Source: an uncultured Candidatus Poseidoniales archaeon
GTDB taxonomy: Archaea; Thermoplasmatota; Poseidoniia; Poseidoniales; Thalassarchaeaceae
Length of the DNA stretch: 40,280 nt
NCBI GenBank assembly: GCA_902573115.1
Contig: CACGIM010000006.1
Span: 1 to 40,280, forward strand
Reading direction: 5' to 3'
This document shows, piece after piece, positions 1,052 through 22,908 of the stretch. The notes under the pieces are model-generated. The model saw nothing but the letters and a program-made list of their open reading frames with translations, made no database searches and had not been told where the DNA came from. Positions within the stretch are counted from its first letter, which is position 1. Each line of letters starts with the position of its first letter. The position numbers were made by a program, and so were the translations under genes.

Positions 1052-1465
1052 TTAGCCCAATCTAAGTAAAAGGCACTCATCTTCCCAAACTGCGCTAACC
1101 AAGCTCTTCCCATCGGGAACCCTAAAAGTTCGCAACATGCCCCCAAACCTTTCTGGAGAAATTATACGTATTAATTCGGCAGACTCTTCTCTTCCGATTT
1201 CCAAAACTACCCCTTCCCTATCGGCCAATGAAAGTGGTACTCTGATCAGAGGATCAGACCACTCCCCCCCGAATTCTGATAAGAAGTCCCCCAAGGTGGA
1301 TACAGTTTTTCTCAGTTCCCTTGATTCTAAGTTAGATAGCATCTGATTATGGCTGTTCTTAATCTCCTCAAGTTGAGGCACGGCCTTCAGAAAATTCTGG
1401 TGCATAGACTCGGCATCGGTATCTAGCCCTATTTTCAAGTCATCAAATCCATAAATCGACTCCAC
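1052..1465 (-). CDS. Probable detached distal part of the XPD-like helicase (137 codons)
   Basis: This frame overlaps the end of the upstream helicase ORF by 31 bases and lies in a different frame. It opens at a GTG (1465) with no convincing ribosome binding site; an in-frame ATG occurs at 1405. The content looks like what should follow the helicase N-terminal half: a helical stretch, then LGDFLSEFGGEW and LIRVPL, the kind of sequence found between the Arch domain and motif III in XPD/DinG helicases. It ends in SAVWEDECLLLRLG without motifs III-VI. A single-base insertion or two-base deletion near 1440-1450 would fuse it smoothly to the upstream frame. I therefore think it is a frame-broken continuation of the helicase rather than an independent gene, but an independently translated small protein cannot be excluded. 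Confidence 0.5.
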   Translation of the reverse strand: MESIYGFDDLKIGLDTDAESMHQNFLKAVPQLEEIKNSHNQMLSNLESRELRKTVSTLGDFLSEFGGEWSDPLIRVPLSLADREGVVLEIGREESAELIRIISPERFGGMLRTFRVPDGKSLVSAVWEDECLLLRLG

Positions 1466-2466
1466 AGAGATTTCATCTGATCGTCACTATTTTCATCAAA
1501 AACCCCTTCTAAACCATCGGAAATCACATCAAGGAAATTTTGGGTATCTACCTTAAGATCGTCTCCTTTAGTGCCATTGTTCTCATTATGTTTTTCTTCG
1601 AACCAATTTCTCAGACCATTGCCGTCCCTTAATGCTCTAATTTGCAATTCGAGAATCTTTGCTTCCTTGAGCTGGTTCGACTCTGGAATTTCAAGCTCAG
1701 CTTCCTTCTTTTGTAGGTCTTCTTTGTATTCTTCCGCTTCAGCTAAAGCTCTTTGTAAAACACGTTCCGTAATTCTTCTCTCCAGTCCACTTCTAATCCT
1801 GTCCGGAAGATTGTGGGCTTCGTCAATAATTAGGATTGTATTCTCCAAATCCACTCCCATTACCGGGAGAGAGGCCTCCCTTACCCCTTCAACGAAAACA
1901 TGGTTGTAGTCACAAACAACAATATCTGTTGTTTTTGCAGCCTCTCTAGCAGTAGACCAAGCGCAAATATCTTCATTCTTTACCCTTCTAAGAACTTGGT
2001 CCACATGTCTAGGTTCAGAGTGTATGAATTCCTCAAGTCCCGACCTTAGAAATCTCTTCTCAGACTCAGTTAGGCCTTCCTCACAATTACATTTTCCTGT
2101 TGATCTGTCGATGTTTTCACACATCCCTTCTCTCCCGATAATGTCGACTAATCTTACCCTAGAAAATCCGGGAGGGATCTTCTTGTTCACCTCTTTGATA
2201 GTATCAACAACTATCCTATGCTGAGATTGCCTACCGGTCAAGAACATAATTTTCAGGCGCTCTTCCCCCGCATTATACAGAAATGCTGCTCTAAGAGCTG
2301 ATGCTATGGAAGCAGCCGTTTTTCCTATTCCAGTAGGGGCTGCCGCTAGAAGAAAACCCCCATTTAATAGCGAATATAACCCGTCAGAAATCATGCTAAT
2401 TTGTGACTCTCTAGGGGTTTCGTGAGCGAAAAAAAGGCTTGCCCCGCTCTCAAGATCCTCCGACAT
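1435..2466 (-). CDS. XPD/Rad3-type Fe-S DNA helicase, N-terminal half only
   Basis: Superfamily 2 helicase of the XPD/DinG family, which unwinds DNA 5'-3' using ATP and an Fe-S cluster. Visible elements in order: Q-motif-like FFAHETPRESQ (residues 12-22); Walker A PTGIGKT with Lys49; an Fe-S region with Cys116, Cys126, Cys128 and Cys168, the last in the family-typical CAWSTAREA; motif II DEAH at 215-218; then the beginning of an Arch-like, Glu/Lys-rich helical region. The ORF ends at residue 343, whereas family members usually exceed 550 residues. Motifs III-VI and the second motor domain are absent here and in the following frame. Start is ATG 2466, 40 bases downstream of the receiver/ATP-grasp gene, so probably co-transcribed. 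As encoded it should not be a processive helicase; it may be decaying, frameshifted, or working through another partner. Confidence 0.8.
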   Translation of the reverse strand: MSEDLESGASLFFAHETPRESQISMISDGLYSLLNGGFLLAAAPTGIGKTAASIASALRAAFLYNAGEERLKIMFLTGRQSQHRIVVDTIKEVNKKIPPGFSRVRLVDIIGREGMCENIDRSTGKCNCEEGLTESEKRFLRSGLEEFIHSEPRHVDQVLRRVKNEDICAWSTAREAAKTTDIVVCDYNHVFVEGVREASLPVMGVDLENTILIIDEAHNLPDRIRSGLERRITERVLQRALAEAEEYKEDLQKKEAELEIPESNQLKEAKILELQIRALRDGNGLRNWFEEKHNENNGTKGDDLKVDTQNFLDVISDGLEGVFDENSDDQMKSLWSRFMDLMT

Positions 2467-2506: not shown

Positions 2507-5434
2507 CTACCTTACTACGATTGCTTCAGAATCTCTGCTGTCCAAGACTATTTTTAGAGGAGAATTAAGTTTAATATGCCTTAATCCCTTTTCATCTAAT
2601 CTGGCTTCGTGTGAATCTAGCCAGTCCCAGTCGATCATGTCACCCTCCACAATTGTAAGGTACCCTATATTGAAAGTCACTATATTCTGGAAGAAATGAG
2701 TTCCTTGGGAAGGGTCTACGTGTATATCGGACATCGGGGCCTCTACTATCGTCTTAGCCCCCATAATCTGGTTCCATTGAGTTGGAATTCCCAGTGATGG
2801 GTCCGATGTCCCCCATCTTCCAGGACCAATGAGCAAGTATGGCCTGTCCCGGCTTCTCAGGTAAGCATCAACCTCTTCAATTAGAGGTACTATATCCATT
2901 GTCCTCATACGATCGATTCTAGCAGGGTGAACGTAGACCACGTCCTCTACCCCCTCGATGACCCCATTACCCAGCGACTTACTGCTAATACAAACCGCCC
3001 TTTCCGTATCAACTTCCTCCAAATCAATATCGATATCTACTGATTCGTCCAAAAGCTGTCTGACTTGCAGTATTGCGAATTTCTTAACGCCGCTCCCTCT
3101 ATCTACGTTTATTGCAAACTCCATTTCAACCGGTGAGACAAGAAATTCCTCAAAAGTCTTCAGAACATGATCCAGAATCTGAGCAAGAGGGAATTTATCA
3201 CGTTTCAGGACTGGGGCAAAGGTGACTAACCTCGATCCACCCTCGGGCCCGATGGAATCCACTATTCTGTCATCCGATGGTATGTAAGTAGAACCGACTA
3301 GGGACAACCGACCATCTTCTTCAGCATCATCAAGGCCCAGGTGAAGTAGATTATCCTGCTCAGAGTGGTGGACTTCTCCACTCTCTTTGGACATTGGAAT
3401 TGCGAAGAATCTACTCTGAGATGTGTCGATAATTGAATTTGTGCTATAGAACTGATGGACTCTCCTTGGCTGAGCAGGGCTGAACCTCAAGCACTTGCCC
3501 CCGGATGAGACCTGCCTCCCTAGGCCAATGCAGACAGCCGCTAATCCATCTTCCATCTTTAGGGGCTCCACAGGGTAGTGATTCCGGCTCCTGGCGGCAC
3601 CAGAAATATCTGGATAGAATCTTCCCATGGTTTCTCTGCCAACAACTTCCTGAATGACAACTGCCATTCGCTCATCTTCGATTTTACTTGCGGTTGCCGT
3701 GATGTAGTCTTTGGCATTCTTGTGGAAAATTGATGCATAGACTAATTTTATCGCTTGTAATAGGCGACTAAGTCTAACATCATGGTCAGGATGATCATTG
3801 GCTAGCATGTAAGTCGCATAAACACCAGCAAATGGTTGGTGACTGGAATCCTCCAACAGACTTGACGATCTTACAGCGACAGGCCAAGGATTGCTATCTA
3901 GCATTTTCTTTATTTCCCCTACTTCGTCACCAAACTCGCCAGACAAGAAAGCACGATTTATTTCCTGGTTGGAGTAATCCCCATAGGCGAATCTGGAAAG
4001 ATCGTTCCTAGCAATGAAATCCCCAAAAACCCCGGTTGCAATGACTGCAGATCTAGGAACGACGAATTCGATTTCTGGATATGAAGCCCCCAAACCTAGC
4101 TTGTCCATTCTAGTGTAGAAGAATGCAAGACCTCTGCCCTTTCCACCAAGGCTACCTTTTCCTATTCTCATGAAACCTCCAGACTCTAATCTTGAAACAT
4201 GATCAGTTATCGTTCGTTTACTCACCCTCCTAACATGGTCCTTGATCGTCTGAGAGATATGCCTCCTCACGTCTTCTGAGTCCTCAAAGTCATCCAAAGT
4301 CATCGGCCTCAGGGAGGCCGCTAGTGAGAACTCAGTCCTTCCCCTTAGCCAGTGTGAGAATTCATTCCTCTTTGCATGAAACTCTATTGTTTCGATTGGC
4401 ATCTCATCAATCATTTCTGCCAGTTCCTCCAGATTTGAAGCCCTTCCGATTTCCAATCCCACAGGTTTCCTAAAAACAAAGTCACCAAAGCTCATTTTCT
4501 CTTTCATGAAATCCTCGATTCTTTGGTACAACATTGGGTCTTCCTTGTGCAGGAAGGGCACTCCCAGCTTCTCCGCTTCGCCTTTTAGTTCGATATTCTT
4601 AGATTGAAGAAGGATTGGCAAATATCTATGGCCGCTCTCGGCGTATTTCACTAATTCTAAGCCCGCCTTATCTCTGTCGCCCCCTTTGTTGGGAAATCGA
4701 CCATCGGTGAATACTCCGATAATGTTCCTTGAGTACAAGTCAATTATTTCCTTTGCCTCATTCATATTCGTGGCAAGCAGTATCTTCGCTCTTGCCCTAA
4801 GTCTGAGTAGGTTCTCGTGAAGGTTCCCCCCCTCTCCAGTAAGCCTGCTGGTCTGGTTCACGAGTTGGGTGTAAAGTAAGGGCAGATAAGCAGAATAAAA
4901 TCTCCTGCTGTCTTCTACCAGCAAGATAACCTGAACATCCCCCTCTCTAACGTCATTCTCGACGTTTTTCTCGTCCTCTATTAGCTTGCAAATTGATAGT
5001 AATATCCTGCTGTCTCCACTCCATACGAAAATTCTGTCAATACCTTCTCCAGTATTCAAGGTCGCTAATTCTCTAGTATTTTGACTTAACATAACCACTG
5101 GAAGATCCGAGACTATCCCCTTCAATTTCCTTGCAAGTTCAAAAACATCCATTTTCCCGACTTTGGACATTGTTATTACAAGATCGAACTTTCTTGCAGA
5201 AACAAGCTCAATTGCATCATCGGCGTCTGGGCTATGGATGATCCGAGGCGCTTGTGACATATTCAATACAGAGTACTCCTCTTGAAGAATTTCTGCCAAA
5301 TGGCCCGACTCTTCAAGCAAATATCTGTCGAATTGACTTGCAATTAGTAGTACTTCCCTCACTCTGAAAGGAGTTAGCCTTTCGAATTTGTTCCAATCCT
5401 CTATGCTCCCATCCATTTGATTTGCTCGGTCCAT
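2507..5434 (-). CDS. Tandem receiver-like domains fused to PEP-synthase-type ATP-grasp domain
   Basis: A 975-residue cytoplasmic protein. Residues about 25-155 look like a degenerate response-regulator fold (FDLVITMSKVGKMDVFELA, then PVVMLS). Residues about 165-315 form a second one (VILLVEDSRRFYSAYLPLLY, IIGVFTDGRFP, YLPILLQS). From about 420 the protein resembles the N-terminal ATP-binding domain of PEP synthase/pyruvate phosphate dikinase: GSLGGKGRGLAFF, then PWPVAVRSSSLLEDS near 515, and VEMEFAINVD. The C-terminus holds GPGRWGTSDPSLGIP near 873, characteristic of an uncharacterised receiver-PPDK family I know mainly from Bacteroidetes. The phosphohistidine swivel domain and the PEP/pyruvate barrel are missing, so it should not make PEP by itself. 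A signalling phosphotransfer or ATP-dependent regulatory role is inference. It follows the RHH regulator and precedes the helicase on the same strand. Confidence 0.85.
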   Translation of the reverse strand: MDRANQMDGSIEDWNKFERLTPFRVREVLLIASQFDRYLLEESGHLAEILQEEYSVLNMSQAPRIIHSPDADDAIELVSARKFDLVITMSKVGKMDVFELARKLKGIVSDLPVVMLSQNTRELATLNTGEGIDRIFVWSGDSRILLSICKLIEDEKNVENDVREGDVQVILLVEDSRRFYSAYLPLLYTQLVNQTSRLTGEGGNLHENLLRLRARAKILLATNMNEAKEIIDLYSRNIIGVFTDGRFPNKGGDRDKAGLELVKYAESGHRYLPILLQSKNIELKGEAEKLGVPFLHKEDPMLYQRIEDFMKEKMSFGDFVFRKPVGLEIGRASNLEELAEMIDEMPIETIEFHAKRNEFSHWLRGRTEFSLAASLRPMTLDDFEDSEDVRRHISQTIKDHVRRVSKRTITDHVSRLESGGFMRIGKGSLGGKGRGLAFFYTRMDKLGLGASYPEIEFVVPRSAVIATGVFGDFIARNDLSRFAYGDYSNQEINRAFLSGEFGDEVGEIKKMLDSNPWPVAVRSSSLLEDSSHQPFAGVYATYMLANDHPDHDVRLSRLLQAIKLVYASIFHKNAKDYITATASKIEDERMAVVIQEVVGRETMGRFYPDISGAARSRNHYPVEPLKMEDGLAAVCIGLGRQVSSGGKCLRFSPAQPRRVHQFYSTNSIIDTSQSRFFAIPMSKESGEVHHSEQDNLLHLGLDDAEEDGRLSLVGSTYIPSDDRIVDSIGPEGGSRLVTFAPVLKRDKFPLAQILDHVLKTFEEFLVSPVEMEFAINVDRGSGVKKFAILQVRQLLDESVDIDIDLEEVDTERAVCISSKSLGNGVIEGVEDVVYVHPARIDRMRTMDIVPLIEEVDAYLRSRDRPYLLIGPGRWGTSDPSLGIPTQWNQIMGAKTIVEAPMSDIHVDPSQGTHFFQNIVTFNIGYLTIVEGDMIDWDWLDSHEARLDEKGLRHIKLNSPLKIVLDSRDSEAIVVR

Positions 5435-13218: not shown

Positions 13219-16200
13219 GTGGATGGGATGGAGACGGATATTGGGAGTGCCAAAGAAGGTCAGAGATTCCCTATTTTTGTAGCCCCAGTAGCTATCTCAC
13301 TCTCGCTTCTTTTGCTAGTAATTGCGGTTTCTTCTTTAGATGGGAGGGAAATTTCTGGAGAATACATATCTGCGGCGGTTGTCATCTCATTATCTGCATT
13401 TTTGCCTGCCTATGCCGGCCGATCCAGCACTCTAATTCCATTTGGGTCCGGTAATCTGAGAATTATATCCCTCTCCGTTGGTCTTCTGATCCTTTCACTG
13501 GTCGCCAATTGGATTGACGATTCATACTTCAGCAACATGTTTGTTGCTACATTCCTCCTTCTGGGCATAGGTACAGCAGTTCTAAATGAATACGGCAGAT
13601 TGGAGGAATCCTCTGTACTGCTCTCAATTGTACTTGGAATGAGACTCGCAGCGTTATATGCATCAGAACTTGGAATCGCCCAATCGACTTCCGCCGCATT
13701 GATTGACATACAACGGGCCTCAATTGGTAGTGCATTCTTCTCCTTTTGGTTTGCAGCAATTTCCCTCGGGTTCTTGGTAATGATTTCTATTAGGGGCACG
13801 TTTGAATCTCGTGGTAGTGGTACTCTATTCTCCGGGATTCCCTACTTTGGTGAGAACAAAGAGGTCGTGGTCTATCCCTCTATGATATTCGCAGGCTTCT
13901 TAATTCCACTTCTATGGTTGGGCAATCTAACTGATCTTGCGGATTATTCCGAAGGTAGACACCTAGGAGTAGTTTGGGCAATTTTCTCAGCACTAATAGT
14001 CCTTATTTTCTCCTTCTTCAGATCCGAGGGATGGCACGTTCTAAGCTCTATGTTGGCCGTAAATTGGCTCTTATACACATTAGGCCACCTTCACGAGATA
14101 GGAAACGAGCTTCCATCATTGTTTTCAGAGGATGGGTTCATCGGAACATTCACGTGGTTCTTCTTAGGTTTCTGGATGAATTTTTTTGCTATCTTTTTTG
14201 CTTCCAGGGGGGCATTTGGAGATATAGCCCCCAGAAGGGACAACAGCGGATACAGAATTTGGTGGGCCAATAACTCGTATGCCGTCATGATTGCATTGGC
14301 ATTTTTAATTGCACTAGTAGTAAGGGTGGCGTGGAACGTAATCCCTGCAATGAATGCTTCAGGAACCGGACTATGGGATATGACGGGCGGTTCAGACCCG
14401 TGGTACATGAAAAGAGTCGTTGACTTCGTAATAGCTGAAAGGAGCCACTTAATTTACGATCATGACAGGGCATACCCATCAGGAGGAATCAATCCAAGGC
14501 CACCTCTTTTCTCATGGTCCTTGGCGTTAGGTGCTATTTTCATTACATGGATATTGGAGATGCCGGTTAGTGAATCCGTATGGTGGTCAATGTCAGCCCT
14601 ACCAGCAGTTTACGGGGCTCTGATTGTCTTCCCCATCGCTGGAATAGCCAGTAGGGCACACACTAAGAGATCCGGAATCTTTGCGGCTTGGCTCATCGCT
14701 CTAATGCCGGGGCACATGAGTAGGTCTACCTTCGCTATGTCCGACCACGATTCTTTCGCAATGCTGTTTCTTGCAATTGCTTTCTACTTTTGGATACGTG
14801 CTCTCGAGCACCTAGAAAACAGGAAGGTCTTCGATCAAACCAGCACCAATCCGCTGTACGTCCTCGCGGGCATTAGAGACACTTGGCAGAAAAACCCTGC
14901 ATTGATGGCCAACGCGACAATGTCAGGGATTGCGTTCTCAGTAATGGCATTAGGTTGGAAGGGGTTCGTATACGGTCCAGGCATCTTATTCCTGGCCTAC
15001 TCGTTTCAAGTTGCTATCAATATCTTCGGAAGAAAGGATAGTCTACAATTCACTTCAGCAGCATTGCAAATGATGTTCACGTCTATCCTTATCCCCTTCG
15101 CATTCTATGCTTGGCCAGGAATGAACCTATTGTTTGCCCCCAGCGGAATGCAGCCAATGTTCTACATAATTGGGTTTACATTCGCGGTAGGATGGGTTTC
15201 AAGCTCGTTCAGGGACAAGCCATGGTTGCTGGTTGTGCTGGGGGGGACAGTACTCTTTGGTACGATACTCGCGCTTCTTTGGATCCTACAGGAAGCAGAA
15301 CTCTACAATGGGTGGGACATACTTTTCACTGGAGGATTCTACTTCTCTAAGAACAAAATATTCGGCACAATTGGAGAGGCCCAAGCTCCGGATAGGGGTG
15401 TCCTGTTTGCTTCATACGGGCCAATAGTTGCATTAATCGCAATAGGTTGCTCTTTCATACTACTCTGGAGGGGTAGCAGAAAAAGCAAGTCGGGACTCAC
15501 CCTATTAGGTCTCTGGACAATAATTGCCACTTACATGGCATGGACTGCTGGAAGATTCATCATCAATGCCACTCCACCTATTGCAGTTGCAGGAGGCATC
15601 GGAATCTCCATGCTTTGGGGGAGTGCAAATTTCTCCTCTTTCACAAAATCATGGCGTAATTCTGGAATTGGGACGCCAGGAACGCGATTCAGGTCACTTT
15701 GGCCAGCTACAAAGACAAGACCAGGAGTTCCTGCGATGATCATTGTCATCTTGCTAATTACCTCTCAACATGCAACATACGGGGTTGATTCAGGAATTCC
15801 AAGGGGAGAGCAATCAGCTTACGAAATTGACGAGACTATTTACGAAATCGCACCAGATATTTTCAGGTACGATTTCTTCAATCTGTTCTCATTACTGAAA
15901 AGCAAGCCATACAACCCCCAAGAATCAGGACTGTGGTATATGGGGACATTCGGCCCCAGTTTCAATTCCCAAGGTTGGAATGAGGCCTACCATTGGCTAT
16001 CTGAGCAAGATAACACAACACCGTTCAGTGAACGGCCAGCTTTCGTTTCCTGGTGGGACTATGGGTTCCAGGCACTTTCCTCTGGACAGCACCCCACAGT
16101 AGCAGACAACTTCCAGTCTGGAATCCCTAATAGCGGGGCAATGCTTCTTTCCGCAGGACAAGAAGACACGCTTTCATTGTTCATTGCAACTCTAGCATTA

Positions 16201-19200
16201 GGTGACAGAAGTGTCAATGGGGGGCAGATGAGCGAGGAATTCCGTGCAGTTCTTGACTCACACATGAACGAAGATCAAGTTTCGGAGTTTTCTGCAATAA
16301 TTTCGAACGGCGATTGCAACCCAGGATGCAGAAATTTTGTAATGGATAGATCGATGTCAGTGATAGCAGAATACGGGACAACTGAGCTACTTCATGGCCA
16401 TATTCTGGATGATATGGGTCTGCCGATCGAAGAAGAATTTTGGTTGGTTTTGAAGGAAGGTGAGCATTACGGGGAGCCAACCTCAAATGAGTCAGAAGGC
16501 CTGTCTTTGTTCGATCAAGCTAGAGGCTCATCTTCCTCCTACGAAATAAAGGAACAACCCGATCACTACGACTTAGGGGGATATAGATATACCAAAGATC
16601 TCTATGACGACTTCTATGACGTTTCGACCGGGTTGCATAGGGCTAATGCGAAATTTGGAATGATGAGAGCATTCTTGACCTCTGCCTTCCAATTAAATGA
16701 GCTCGTCTCCATTTATGACGGAATCACCTCAATCGACACGTACGAAGTCACAGACTACGATGGGGGGACCACTACTAGGAATCACGAGATTCGGTATTTC
16801 GCAGTAGACAACAGACTGTACCCGCTTGGAGGAAAATACAACGCAGATTATTCCAGCTACCACAGGGGCCAGACAACTGGGATCTTCCACGCGCCTACAC
16901 ACCTGTCAGGACTCGATATAGACACTTACATCACCACGACATATGAGACAAATCAAGGCATGATGGACTCGCAGGAGTACTCGGATAGATACATGGAGGA
17001 CATTAGATCTCAAGCATCTGGAGCCACTACAGCAGATGAGATGATTGCAATAAATGATATCGATTATCAGCACAATGAACAATTCTTCGAGACTATGGTC
17101 GCAAGGACCTATGTGGGATATGGTTCCTCAACTCTCGGGCTCGACTCACCCGGTGGCCTATCGGGTCAGGCAGACTCTCCATCTTCGTGGATCGCTCCTT
17201 CAGCCCTATCCGGCTCTCCGGGGAGCTATCTTGAGGGGGCTATGGCGTTGCCGGGAGCGATGATGAACCACTTTGTAATCTCTAATTGGTATGATCCGAC
17301 CGATGGAGCAAGCTGCGAAACTAACGATACTGGCGTTAAGATTGACCAATACTGTGGGACTGTTTACGACTCCAACAGATTCGTCAAGATTCTAAAGTAC
17401 TACAGCGGTGCAACATTGGAGGGAACAGTCACCCTTGATGGTGTTGGACCAGTTCCAAACGCGCGTATTTTGATAGAAAGAGACGCATTTAGCGGTGAGG
17501 AAGAAGAGGATGAAAATGGCAAAGTAATTGATAGAGATTCAAGGACTTTCTGGATACCAATAGGGACCACCCAAGCAGATGATAATGGAGACTTCTCATT
17601 CGTAGCCCCATCGGGAAAAATCAGAGTGACAGCATTCACCGGGGAAGCGGATTTGGATAGTGGAAGATCTACAATTATGTCTGGAATGGGCTACGCGATG
17701 AGCGAGCTTTTCACAGAGGACCCACAAAACAGAAACGTAAACCCAGTCACTGGTATCCTCGGCGAAGTCTACGGTTCGACATGGCTAAAACACACCATCG
17801 TTAATGTCTCTGGATCTGATGGCCATAGCAATGGCGAACAAGTAATTGATGCATCAATTACAGTAGAACCCTCAATGGCCTCGGGAATACTCACTTGGTC
17901 AGGCCAGCTAGATTTTGATGGTCAACCAGTCACATCCGCCGAAGTCGTGCTCGCACCTGTTTCGGGTGAGGTCAATATAGAACCTTACAGAAGTCAGACC
18001 TCCAACGGTTCAGTCATCGGCCAGTCACTAAAGTTCACTGGAGAGGGGGAGGTCACATTTTCAGGAAACGGCTCAGTAATTTCGCAAGGAACAGTCTCCG
18101 TTAGTGAGTTTACAGGTACACAGGCGCAGACAATATTTGACAACCATAGTGTCACAGGAGAGGGTGAATTCTCCGGGAAGGGGACATTAGAGGGCGTCAT
18201 TGGTGGAGAAATTCCAGTTTGTACAGGGGGCGACGTTCCATCCGAAACTGAAGCATGTCTAGTAAGTGAGGGTTTGTATCTTGTTAACGGTACTGTGAAC
18301 GCTTCTGGCCGGTTCACATCGCAGGGAATTAGCCAGTACACTAGGTCCCTTGTACAAGCCTCCCTTGTTGGGTCTGGAACCTTCACAACCGATACTTCAC
18401 AAACCCTTTCGGGATACGGGACTATTAACGGTACAGGAACATTCTCCGGAGATGGTGAATTTAGCGGACCAATGGTCAGTGCGGGCTCATTCCACATTGT
18501 AGACGCTCTACCTGGAGATTACACAATCTCGGTTGATTTTGGAGATGGAAATCAAATAGAATTGGGGGAGACTTTCCAGATTCCATTGAATCCATCAGAT
18601 TCCCAAACTCCCGTCACTATATTTGGTGGCGCCATTAAGGGAGAAGTATCCCTTCACTCTGGGGAGCCTCTATCAAGCGAAATTGCTATTCTTCAGCCAA
18701 ATGAAACATACGATTCTTCGATCGAGGGGTGTGAAGCGATAGTCCAGCCACCGTGCACAATAATGCCGGAAAACGATGGATCATTCGAAATAGGCCCAAT
18801 CATACCAGGATCTTATTCTGTACAGGTAGATGTCGATGATGATGGATTCCCAGAAATATCTGAGAGCTACATTTTCAGATCGGATGAAGACTCACTCTCC
18901 ACATTTCCATCAGTTGTCCCGGATACAACCGATATCAGCTTCACGGTTAGGGATGGGGACATTATTGTCGAAAATCTGAGTCTTATATTCAGATCCGTAA
19001 ATCAATCGGTAGCTGATGTGATTTCAATTTATGATGCTGAAACGGGAATTTACAATTCAGAACTAACCCAAGGTGAATGGCTTCTGAATTACACTATTGA
19101 AGGTGATAAGCAACTCTGGCAAAGAATCATTATTGGTGCCGAAGATATATCAGGAGCAGATTATGAGTTTGTTGAGAGTCAAACGGTGAGTGGCGTTATT

Positions 19201-22200
19201 ACCGATGGCTCTGGTAAAGATAACCCGGATTCACCCCCTGGACTTCCGGTTTCTTATCAGGAAGTGCTTTTCCAGTGGGATGGGTTCTCAATTACCTCGA
19301 TCACTGATCAAAATGGAAACTTTAGCGTTAACCTACCAGTTGGGGCTTGGATAGATCTAACCGTCGAACGTACAATTGGGGCAGGAGGCTTCCTTTCAAA
19401 CGGGACTCGATTCCAAGTCAGTGAAGGAATGCCTGACATTTCGATAGATCTTAGGCCTGCAATGATGGTTATGGGTGCTGCAAGCCTAAGCAGGGAAGGA
19501 AATACCTACAATCAAGGATTCCCCGGATGGGTCCCTGTTTTTGCCCTAGCAAACAACCTGGACGGATTTAGTCAAGCAGTTTGGAGGTCCGAGGTTGATG
19601 AGCTAGGAAGGTTCGATGTACTACTGCCTGTAGGCAACTGGTCCTTGACCCTAGATGCTGGGGAGATGGGATCATCATCAGAAACGATAGAGGTAAACGC
19701 TACATCAGACTCCGTCGAGCTGCTAATTTTGCCCGAGGACAATAGCACTGTTTCAATCGATTTCTTTATTGATCGACAAGGAGACAATAACCAATCTAAC
19801 GGAACGCCAGTGCCAAATACCTTCCCGTTCGAAATAGTTCCTTTGACATCCAACGGACTAGGAGTTACAGTGAGTTCTGTTGGATCTGAGTGGATATCCG
19901 ATGGAACCGCACAAGTTTCACTTGAGCCCGGCAAGTACAGAATAGTCGTTGAAAGGGCAAATTCATCTGCTAGTGAGATATTCGACACTCTCTATGACAC
20001 AAACAAGGTTTTCGATGTTTATCTGGAACCATCCGAGATTACAAGATCTGTCGGTTTCGAACCTCTTTGGCTTGTCAATATAACACTGACAAACCAAAGT
20101 AAAGACCCGTTGGGTGAACACATTGTCAAGTTGCAGAATTCAGAGAACGGCTGGATCCAGAACTTTGTGACAAACGAGTCCGGTAAGATTCTAGAATATG
20201 TCGAAGAAGGGGATTGGGTACTAATCGTAGACGAATTTGAAAGTAGCTCTGGAGTCTTTGAGGGTCTAAGGGAATTAATTTCGGTCTCAGAAAATACAGC
20301 AGGAGTGGCGTATGACTTAGAGACTTCCCAGCTGGCTAATATTGCAATAAATCTAACATCCGAACCCTCTGGAGTTGACCTAGGAGAAATGGAAGTCACG
20401 TTGACCTCACAGGAGGGCCTAGGCTCATTCTCAATATCTCACCCGGGGTTCGGACAGACTTTGGAGATGAGACTAACACCAGGCCTATGGAACATAGAAA
20501 TGAATGAAACGGAAGGAGGGGTCCGACTTCTCCTAGAAAACACATCGTTGTCCGAGTCTGGCATCACTGTAGGGGAAGTCAATGAGGTCTCTTTAACGGT
20601 ACAGAGGCTAGCTCAGCTTGCTGGAATGGTTTTCTGGGACCTCGATGAAAACGACTCTCCCGGTTTCTTTGAAGGCCTTTCCAACGCTTCATTAACGATC
20701 TCCCCAAACATTCCAGAATCTGAACTCCCCACATACGAAATATTCTCCGGAGATAACGGGGCATGGTCAGTATACCTACCCGCTCAGACCTCTTGGGATA
20801 TCGAGGTCACGAAGGATGGATTTGAAAATGTGGAATTAAGCATAGGGCTTGGGTTAGAATCTATGTCCGAAGACATAGAAATAACAGCTGGAGAAGTAGA
20901 AGTCTCAGGAATCGTCTCATATCCGGATAACTCATGTGTATCCAACGAGGATTGGAATCTAGTCCTGATACCCTCTCACGGAATATCCCGAGAACGTGTC
21001 ACTGCTACCAAAGTATCAAACCCAAGTGGGTGGACTGGAGAATGGTCAGCATCTGTTCAACCGGGCGATTGGGTGGCCTACGTATCGTTAGATACTCAGA
21101 ATCAAAATTGCCAAGGTCTTGTATCAATCAAATCGATGGAAGTAGGGGTTGAAGGGGGTTCGCTTGATTCAGAATTGGCAATCGGTGGCATTCTCAACCT
21201 CAACACCCGATGGCTAGACTTCGATGGAGGAGTGCGTGACCTTTCCGAGGTACCTGACTACGACTTGAAATTTGAGATTGGGGCTATATCATGGTCCGAA
21301 ACATTGGAGGAAGACGGAACGATATCCATTCTAACAATTCCAGGCACCATTCAAGTATCGAGCGAATTTGAGATTTCAGAAGGCAACAGGAACGTATCTT
21401 ATTCCGGAGGCCAAGGAATTTCGATAAGAGCGGGGCAGGACTCACCGCTGAAGACTCTGAATGTTGAGAGAGAATCCAACCAGGACATCTCTGCAACTGC
21501 CGTCGGCGAACCCAGGAAAACCGTAAGTGAAGTTGACCAATCATGCACAAATGACAGCGATGGGGATGGATACATCGATGGAGAAGACGTATTCCCGGAT
21601 GACCCCTCAGAGTGGAGAGACTTGGATGGAGATGGCATGGGCGACAATGAAGACACCGACGATGACAATGATGGTGATCTAGATTCGATCGATGAAGTAA
21701 ACATCTATGCCGGTGGGGACAATTCTCCCCCAGGATGTTCCTACACTAATGCCGAATTCAGCCTAACTGTCACCTATGAGGGGCACAACTCTCTAGACCA
21801 GTTCTCGGTAGTTGGAACAGTACCCGGTGCCGATGGGACCCTGTGGGATGTAAAATTTGAGAATTCTACCTCCTCTGGAGATTGGCTAGACTCTCTTACC
21901 TTTGAGATGGGCTTGAACAACTCAGACATATCGGAGGAACTGAATGTCAGAGTGATACCAGCCAAAGTTGGAGAGGCCCACCACTTCTCTGGAGGTCACA
22001 GAGTTCTGCTAAAGTTCTCAACCCAGCAAGGATATACCATGGAGATGGAGCTAATTGTTGATGTCCCTAAGTCACCAGGATTCAGGATGGAAATTACCGA
22101 GGAGTATGATGAAATCACATACTTCCCACCAGATGAGCAAACGATATCTATCGAAATTCCTTTCAGGAACTCAGGAAACTCCGACGAGACATTCACATTC

Positions 22201-22908
22201 GAGTTCGAAGAATCCAACAATTGGGAGGTTGCTGGACCTATGATGCAACCAGTTTCCCCTTTCTCTGACGGTCTTGCTACCTTCACCTTAATTCCAACAT
22301 TTACGGGCAATCTAGCTCCTGATTACGAAGAGACAATAGATATCTTAGTGACTGATAGTTCGAATAACTCATACACATTCCAAAATAGACTAAAATTGGA
22401 CTCCCCGAAGCTATCTGTTGTTGGCGATTCTGCTACTCTCCTTGGAAATAGGTTCCCAACCTTTGGGGAAATTGAGAGATACTCCCTGAACGTATCAAAC
22501 TCTGGAAACGTTCTTGCCGATGACGTCACAATAACTGCGACGTTGTGTTCAGAGATTACATGCGAAGATGATCAGAGACTAAACATAACGAGCAGCGCTA
22601 CTGGCTCTGTCTCTTCTGCGGACGAATCCACGTTCTACTTTGATATGGATTTCACACAATTCGATTCGGCACAGAAGTACTACATCGTTTTCGAAATTAC
22701 AGGGGAGGATTTGAGCGAGAGGGCTCAATCTTGCGACAGCTCTAATTCGATAGGCAAGCCATCTTGCGTCATTGAAGCGCAATTATGGACAGGTTCGGAG
22801 GAAAACGAGAACCTGAAATACATGGCATACGTATTTGTAATTCTGCTGATCTCTGCATTAGTTTACTTCACTAGAAGGCCAGGAAGAAGAGTTAGTGCTC
22901 CTTTCTGA
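13219..22908 (+). CDS. aglB: AglB/STT3 oligosaccharyltransferase fused to a giant extracytoplasmic region
   Basis: The catalytic core transfers a lipid-linked glycan to Asn in N-X-S/T sequons outside the membrane. All family motifs are visible: first catalytic acid in GGSDPWYMKR (Asp393), second in MSDHDSF (Asp509/Asp511), TIXE-type GTIGEAQ (Glu720), WWDYG (945-949), and a DxxM-type VMDRSMSVI near 1043. The core is preceded by about 340 extra residues with many membrane helices, whereas AglB normally starts close to its first acid. From about 1395 to the end it carries about 1800 extra residues: carboxypeptidase-regulatory-like beta domains, a Gly/Ser/Thr-rich repeat stretch (about 1600-1760), an acidic DSDGDGYIDGED-type calcium-binding segment (about 2779-2820), and a final membrane helix (about 3200-3222) with a basic tail. 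Starts are GTG 13219 or ATG 13228. The usual family length is below 1100. The fused region contains many sequons, so it could be its own substrate. Confidence 0.88.
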   Translation: MDGMETDIGSAKEGQRFPIFVAPVAISLSLLLLVIAVSSLDGREISGEYISAAVVISLSAFLPAYAGRSSTLIPFGSGNLRIISLSVGLLILSLVANWIDDSYFSNMFVATFLLLGIGTAVLNEYGRLEESSVLLSIVLGMRLAALYASELGIAQSTSAALIDIQRASIGSAFFSFWFAAISLGFLVMISIRGTFESRGSGTLFSGIPYFGENKEVVVYPSMIFAGFLIPLLWLGNLTDLADYSEGRHLGVVWAIFSALIVLIFSFFRSEGWHVLSSMLAVNWLLYTLGHLHEIGNELPSLFSEDGFIGTFTWFFLGFWMNFFAIFFASRGAFGDIAPRRDNSGYRIWWANNSYAVMIALAFLIALVVRVAWNVIPAMNASGTGLWDMTGGSDPWYMKRVVDFVIAERSHLIYDHDRAYPSGGINPRPPLFSWSLALGAIFITWILEMPVSESVWWSMSALPAVYGALIVFPIAGIASRAHTKRSGIFAAWLIALMPGHMSRSTFAMSDHDSFAMLFLAIAFYFWIRALEHLENRKVFDQTSTNPLYVLAGIRDTWQKNPALMANATMSGIAFSVMALGWKGFVYGPGILFLAYSFQVAINIFGRKDSLQFTSAALQMMFTSILIPFAFYAWPGMNLLFAPSGMQPMFYIIGFTFAVGWVSSSFRDKPWLLVVLGGTVLFGTILALLWILQEAELYNGWDILFTGGFYFSKNKIFGTIGEAQAPDRGVLFASYGPIVALIAIGCSFILLWRGSRKSKSGLTLLGLWTIIATYMAWTAGRFIINATPPIAVAGGIGISMLWGSANFSSFTKSWRNSGIGTPGTRFRSLWPATKTRPGVPAMIIVILLITSQHATYGVDSGIPRGEQSAYEIDETIYEIAPDIFRYDFFNLFSLLKSKPYNPQESGLWYMGTFGPSFNSQGWNEAYHWLSEQDNTTPFSERPAFVSWWDYGFQALSSGQHPTVADNFQSGIPNSGAMLLSAGQEDTLSLFIATLALGDRSVNGGQMSEEFRAVLDSHMNEDQVSEFSAIISNGDCNPGCRNFVMDRSMSVIAEYGTTELLHGHILDDMGLPIEEEFWLVLKEGEHYGEPTSNESEGLSLFDQARGSSSSYEIKEQPDHYDLGGYRYTKDLYDDFYDVSTGLHRANAKFGMMRAFLTSAFQLNELVSIYDGITSIDTYEVTDYDGGTTTRNHEIRYFAVDNRLYPLGGKYNADYSSYHRGQTTGIFHAPTHLSGLDIDTYITTTYETNQGMMDSQEYSDRYMEDIRSQASGATTADEMIAINDIDYQHNEQFFETMVARTYVGYGSSTLGLDSPGGLSGQADSPSSWIAPSALSGSPGSYLEGAMALPGAMMNHFVISNWYDPTDGASCETNDTGVKIDQYCGTVYDSNRFVKILKYYSGATLEGTVTLDGVGPVPNARILIERDAFSGEEEEDENGKVIDRDSRTFWIPIGTTQADDNGDFSFVAPSGKIRVTAFTGEADLDSGRSTIMSGMGYAMSELFTEDPQNRNVNPVTGILGEVYGSTWLKHTIVNVSGSDGHSNGEQVIDASITVEPSMASGILTWSGQLDFDGQPVTSAEVVLAPVSGEVNIEPYRSQTSNGSVIGQSLKFTGEGEVTFSGNGSVISQGTVSVSEFTGTQAQTIFDNHSVTGEGEFSGKGTLEGVIGGEIPVCTGGDVPSETEACLVSEGLYLVNGTVNASGRFTSQGISQYTRSLVQASLVGSGTFTTDTSQTLSGYGTINGTGTFSGDGEFSGPMVSAGSFHIVDALPGDYTISVDFGDGNQIELGETFQIPLNPSDSQTPVTIFGGAIKGEVSLHSGEPLSSEIAILQPNETYDSSIEGCEAIVQPPCTIMPENDGSFEIGPIIPGSYSVQVDVDDDGFPEISESYIFRSDEDSLSTFPSVVPDTTDISFTVRDGDIIVENLSLIFRSVNQSVADVISIYDAETGIYNSELTQGEWLLNYTIEGDKQLWQRIIIGAEDISGADYEFVESQTVSGVITDGSGKDNPDSPPGLPVSYQEVLFQWDGFSITSITDQNGNFSVNLPVGAWIDLTVERTIGAGGFLSNGTRFQVSEGMPDISIDLRPAMMVMGAASLSREGNTYNQGFPGWVPVFALANNLDGFSQAVWRSEVDELGRFDVLLPVGNWSLTLDAGEMGSSSETIEVNATSDSVELLILPEDNSTVSIDFFIDRQGDNNQSNGTPVPNTFPFEIVPLTSNGLGVTVSSVGSEWISDGTAQVSLEPGKYRIVVERANSSASEIFDTLYDTNKVFDVYLEPSEITRSVGFEPLWLVNITLTNQSKDPLGEHIVKLQNSENGWIQNFVTNESGKILEYVEEGDWVLIVDEFESSSGVFEGLRELISVSENTAGVAYDLETSQLANIAINLTSEPSGVDLGEMEVTLTSQEGLGSFSISHPGFGQTLEMRLTPGLWNIEMNETEGGVRLLLENTSLSESGITVGEVNEVSLTVQRLAQLAGMVFWDLDENDSPGFFEGLSNASLTISPNIPESELPTYEIFSGDNGAWSVYLPAQTSWDIEVTKDGFENVELSIGLGLESMSEDIEITAGEVEVSGIVSYPDNSCVSNEDWNLVLIPSHGISRERVTATKVSNPSGWTGEWSASVQPGDWVAYVSLDTQNQNCQGLVSIKSMEVGVEGGSLDSELAIGGILNLNTRWLDFDGGVRDLSEVPDYDLKFEIGAISWSETLEEDGTISILTIPGTIQVSSEFEISEGNRNVSYSGGQGISIRAGQDSPLKTLNVERESNQDISATAVGEPRKTVSEVDQSCTNDSDGDGYIDGEDVFPDDPSEWRDLDGDGMGDNEDTDDDNDGDLDSIDEVNIYAGGDNSPPGCSYTNAEFSLTVTYEGHNSLDQFSVVGTVPGADGTLWDVKFENSTSSGDWLDSLTFEMGLNNSDISEELNVRVIPAKVGEAHHFSGGHRVLLKFSTQQGYTMEMELIVDVPKSPGFRMEITEEYDEITYFPPDEQTISIEIPFRNSGNSDETFTFEFEESNNWEVAGPMMQPVSPFSDGLATFTLIPTFTGNLAPDYEETIDILVTDSSNNSYTFQNRLKLDSPKLSVVGDSATLLGNRFPTFGEIERYSLNVSNSGNVLADDVTITATLCSEITCEDDQRLNITSSATGSVSSADESTFYFDMDFTQFDSAQKYYIVFEITGEDLSERAQSCDSSNSIGKPSCVIEAQLWTGSEENENLKYMAYVFVILLISALVYFTRRPGRRVSAPF

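Follow-up and report, generated by a model that had tools for sequence, protein, structure and literature searches.

Introduction

The window analysed here, one whole contig of 40,280 nt from a 979,519-base assembly that is 63% complete, carries the gene of an XPD-like helicase that stops at half length, and next to it a second reading frame that overlaps the first (positions 1435–1483). The locus therefore raises the question of whether a helicase may be assembled from these two frames, or whether the gene has simply been broken. A preliminary description of this DNA took the second frame for a continuation of the helicase, and it considered a decaying gene, an assembly error, programmed frameshifting with a motor-1-only protein, and a second half encoded elsewhere as possible explanations. 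Here, we report that the locus is an ordinary truncated gene or an artefact of one genome rather than a new kind of helicase, because the relatives are without the lesion and the supposed continuation is the neighbouring gene. We consider it very likely that an XPD/Rad3-type helicase gene has been broken by one 1,088-bp deletion, a judgement that covers a real deletion and an artefact alike.

The window comes from a marine archaeon of the Candidatus Poseidoniales (Marine Group II, Thalassarchaeaceae-like), and the gene belongs to a DNA-repair helicase family. The named relatives that carry the gene belong to Marine Group II/Candidatus Poseidoniales, and many of them are labelled Thalassarchaeaceae. 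The closest is UBA462, with 91% DNA identity to the window across 40 kb. The comparison set comprised 80 named loci, four of which are cut by contig ends, leaving 76 that are comparable over the full length of the gene. An XPD-family helicase gene is present in 55 of the 60 Poseidoniales relatives examined, the remainder being mostly incomplete assemblies. The features of the locus are collected in Table 1.

Table 1. Features at the broken helicase locus (positions in the window)
Feature	Position	Strand	Basis
Convergent neighbour, DUF4129, cut by contig start	2..1051	+	Pfam; blastn, collinear and 92% identical with UBA462
Downstream-gene remains, family of about 150 aa; start codon and first nine codons lost	1052..1478	-	UBA462 ORF; MEWTR start of relatives
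Deletion junction, 1,088 bp of UBA462 missing	1479..1481	.	blastn against UBA462 contig; junction alignment; chance estimate
Truncated XPD/Rad3-type helicase gene	1435..2466	-	Pfam DEAD_2; NCBIfam rad3; alignment with UBA462 and 11 close relatives
Intact upstream neighbour, response-regulator-like/PPDK_N	2507..5434	-	Pfam; syntenic in UBA462

The first motor domain and the missing second half

The helicase frame encodes 343 residues and matches DEAD_2 with an E-value of 4e-16 (Pfam). Alignment with UBA462 and the relatives showed that residues 1–328 are native helicase, consisting of motor domain 1 with its Fe–S region, whereas residues 330–343 form a 14-residue out-of-frame tail that derives from the joined downstream sequence and ends at the stop. 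The early stop at residue 343 was confirmed, as was the intactness of the Walker A motif, the four-cysteine Fe–S region and the DEAH motif, all of which were located and found to be conserved across the 80 relatives. The Walker A sequence GIGKTAA begins at residue 46, and its Lys49 is conserved in 80/80 relatives; DEAH begins at residue 215, with Asp215 retained in 80/80 and Glu216 in 79/80. The predicted cluster ligands Cys116, Cys126, Cys128 and Cys168 are each conserved in 79–80 of the 80 loci. Among the hallmarks of XPD/Rad3-type SF2 helicases, the motor 1 motifs and the four cysteines are thus present, but the second motor (PF13307) is missing.

What has been lost is evident from the full-length helicase of UBA462 (667 aa), which contains DEAD_2 (PF06733), HBB (PF06777) and Helicase_C_2 (PF13307, residues 476–644). 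Residues 1–328 of the remnant are orthologous to this protein (85% identity) and lie at the same locus, but the window copy is without half of the protein, including HBB and Helicase_C_2. The XPD of Thermoplasma acidophilum (Ta0057; PDB entries 4a15 and 5h8w), which is one of the closest structurally characterized relatives of the UBA462 protein in its intact form, has both motors, whereas the remnant has one. As motifs III–VI are gone, no helicase activity would be expected from the product.

The absence of a second-motor domain from every other frame of the window agrees with the preliminary description. Its proposal that the second half is encoded elsewhere found no support: the search for an orphan second-motor domain gave no PF13307 match above the cut-off in the window or in the rest of the 63%-complete assembly (best E-value 0.23), using a profile that was detected in 13 of 14 control genomes, and the missing 1.1 kb of DNA returned only chance-level matches elsewhere in that assembly (best E-value 0.5). 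These searches suggest that the missing half is absent from the rest of the genome, with the completeness of 63% leaving room for an intact second copy.

The deletion junction

Comparison with the UBA462 contig by blastn provides a simple account of the loss. The window aligns to it as two pieces (1–1481 and 1475–40280; 91–92% identity) that are offset by 1,088 bp. This gap is the only large difference from UBA462 in the 40-kb comparison, the other gaps being one of six bases and four of one base. It has removed residues from about 328/329 to 667 of the helicase (UBA462 numbering), the helicase stop, and the start and first nine codons of the next gene. The bases GAT are common to both sides of the joint, and they lie inside a seven-base near-match, ATC(T/C)GAT. 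In a simulation on the same contig, at least three exact shared bases occurred in 5.8% of random 1,088-bp deletions, and at least seven shared bases with one mismatch in 1.0%.

Wherever no contig end interrupts the gene, namely in 76 relatives, the helicase frame runs to full length. A comparison of the locus in relatives, as the preliminary description had proposed, accordingly found the gene intact and complete, both in UBA462 and in the other comparable genomes. The single lesion, set against intact orthologues at the corresponding locus of relatives, is what a pseudogene formed by deletion would show. The likeness to a pseudogene made by short-homology deletion lies in the one clean gap, the 3–7 shared bases and the damage to two adjacent genes; it differs in that the remnant, as assembled, is so far without visible decay. 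No match to the same junction was found in a species-representative genome collection, which may omit the window's own record, or in viral contigs.

The single deletion of 1,088 bp joins codon ~328 of the helicase, out of frame, to codon ~10 of its downstream neighbour. In the mechanism that we propose, the event would be recent and inactivating, and microhomology-mediated loss in the cell or cells that were sequenced would be its probable origin; an error of amplification or assembly is less likely. The earlier suspicion of a decaying gene or an assembly error was thus of the right kind, but the lesion is this long deletion rather than a short indel at 1435–1465.

The second frame is the downstream gene

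The frame at 1052–1465 (minus strand) encodes 137 aa, has no significant family match in Pfam or NCBIfam and contains no helicase motif. Its product is 91% identical to that of a separate gene 3' of the UBA462 helicase, where the helicase and the downstream gene are two intact genes. A homologue of the downstream gene is detectable after the helicase in 70 of the 76 comparable relatives; in 69 of these 70 loci, the position matching window position 1465 lies 67–94 nt past the helicase stop. Furthermore, the gene of close relatives opens with a conserved MEWTR, a start that is missing in the window. On the basis of this homology, the position past the helicase stop and the conserved start, the 137-aa ORF is the neighbouring gene, and not a continuation of the helicase in another frame.

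This identification decides against programmed frameshifting, in which the two frames would be fused into one helicase. The overlap of the frames speaks for such a reading, but the second frame carries no helicase motif and is homologous to a different gene, which has a start of its own in relatives; this homology refutes the reading and leaves it a practically negligible chance.

The downstream family of about 150 aa, which has no Pfam or NCBIfam match above the cut-off, adjoins the XPD-like helicase in 70/76 loci; it is possibly a conserved partner of XPD.

Age of the lesion and selection on the remnant

Synonymous divergence from UBA462 (dS) is about 0.33–0.35 for the remnants of the helicase and of the downstream gene, and equally for the two genes that flank them. 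The corresponding dN/dS ratios are 0.19 for the helicase remnant, 0.13 for the downstream remnant, 0.04–0.07 for the two flanking genes and 0.04–0.12 for three other genes, the pairwise value of the remnant mostly reflecting the time before the deletion. When amino-acid changes in the helicase remnant were polarized with 11 outgroups, five fell on the window branch and 12 on the UBA462 branch; the window branch therefore has no surplus of changes that would account for the higher dN/dS of the remnant. The remnant also keeps 141 of the 143 residues that are invariant in relatives. From these sequence comparisons, the lesion would seem to be either very young or an artefact, and an absence of decay would likewise be expected if the remnant had kept a function.

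Such a function would imply that the short protein is a working motor-1-only (ATP-binding, Fe–S) protein, selected after loss of the second motor. The intact motor-1 motifs and Fe–S cysteines, the ratio of 0.19 and the lack of excess changes on the window branch are compatible with this, but a ratio that was largely set before the deletion says little for selection after it; moreover, the motor-1-only form occurs in no relative, the short protein ends in an out-of-frame tail, and the same deletion beheads the neighbouring gene. We regard the reading as highly improbable; neither the motor-1-only protein entertained in the preliminary description nor the frameshift is supported. Just as improbable is a role for the truncated Fe–S-bearing protein as a regulator or competitor that does not unwind DNA and that this lineage would express and retain, having lost the full-length enzyme.

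Real deletion or artefact

Within the preferred explanation of a gene broken by one deletion, the joint may still have been made in the laboratory or in the computer, by an amplification chimera, a library chimera or an assembly mis-join, with the true gene intact. No other genome shows the event, and both sides of the joint are undecayed, as an artefact would have it. In addition, the group appears to include single-cell amplified genomes, judging from titles of relatives such as AG-457-A01 and AH-287-M04, which we take to denote single-cell genomes. The 3–7 shared bases bear on the matter in two ways: they are probably too short for a k-mer mis-join, but the joints of amplification chimeras usually carry short homology (PMC1855051). 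Nevertheless, amplification chimeras are mostly inverted, and direct-orientation joints of less than 10 kb were rare in one single-cell study (11/475; PMC1855051). Nor do genes of recognized family show any frameshift across the 40 kb that were compared. Widespread chimerism of the genome was considered and rejected, as 515 kb of it are collinear with UBA462, with zero inverted joints and only collinear gaps. From the type of joint and the collinearity, our reading leans towards a real deletion, and an artefact is a substantial but lesser possibility.

In annotation, the label that fits the locus is a deletion-broken XPD-family helicase (or a suspect joint) rather than a split or frameshifted one; beyond annotation, it has little importance. 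If the deletion is real, it would represent one natural loss of an XPD-family helicase in Poseidoniales.

Other observations on the assembly and the window

A few other collinear gaps, of about 250–315 bp, were seen relative to UBA462 in contigs C1–C9 of the assembly, and the DNA identity to UBA462 in these contigs is patchy, ranging from about 87% to 99% by stretch. Recombination or mosaic ancestry is a possible source of both. The upstream neighbour of the helicase encodes a product of 975 aa with response-regulator-like, DUF5752-like and PPDK_N (phosphoenolpyruvate synthase ATP-binding) regions. Further along the window (13219–22908, plus strand), a 3,229-aa protein is encoded that has an STT3 oligosaccharyltransferase domain near its N-terminus and CarboxypepD_reg-like repeats further on.
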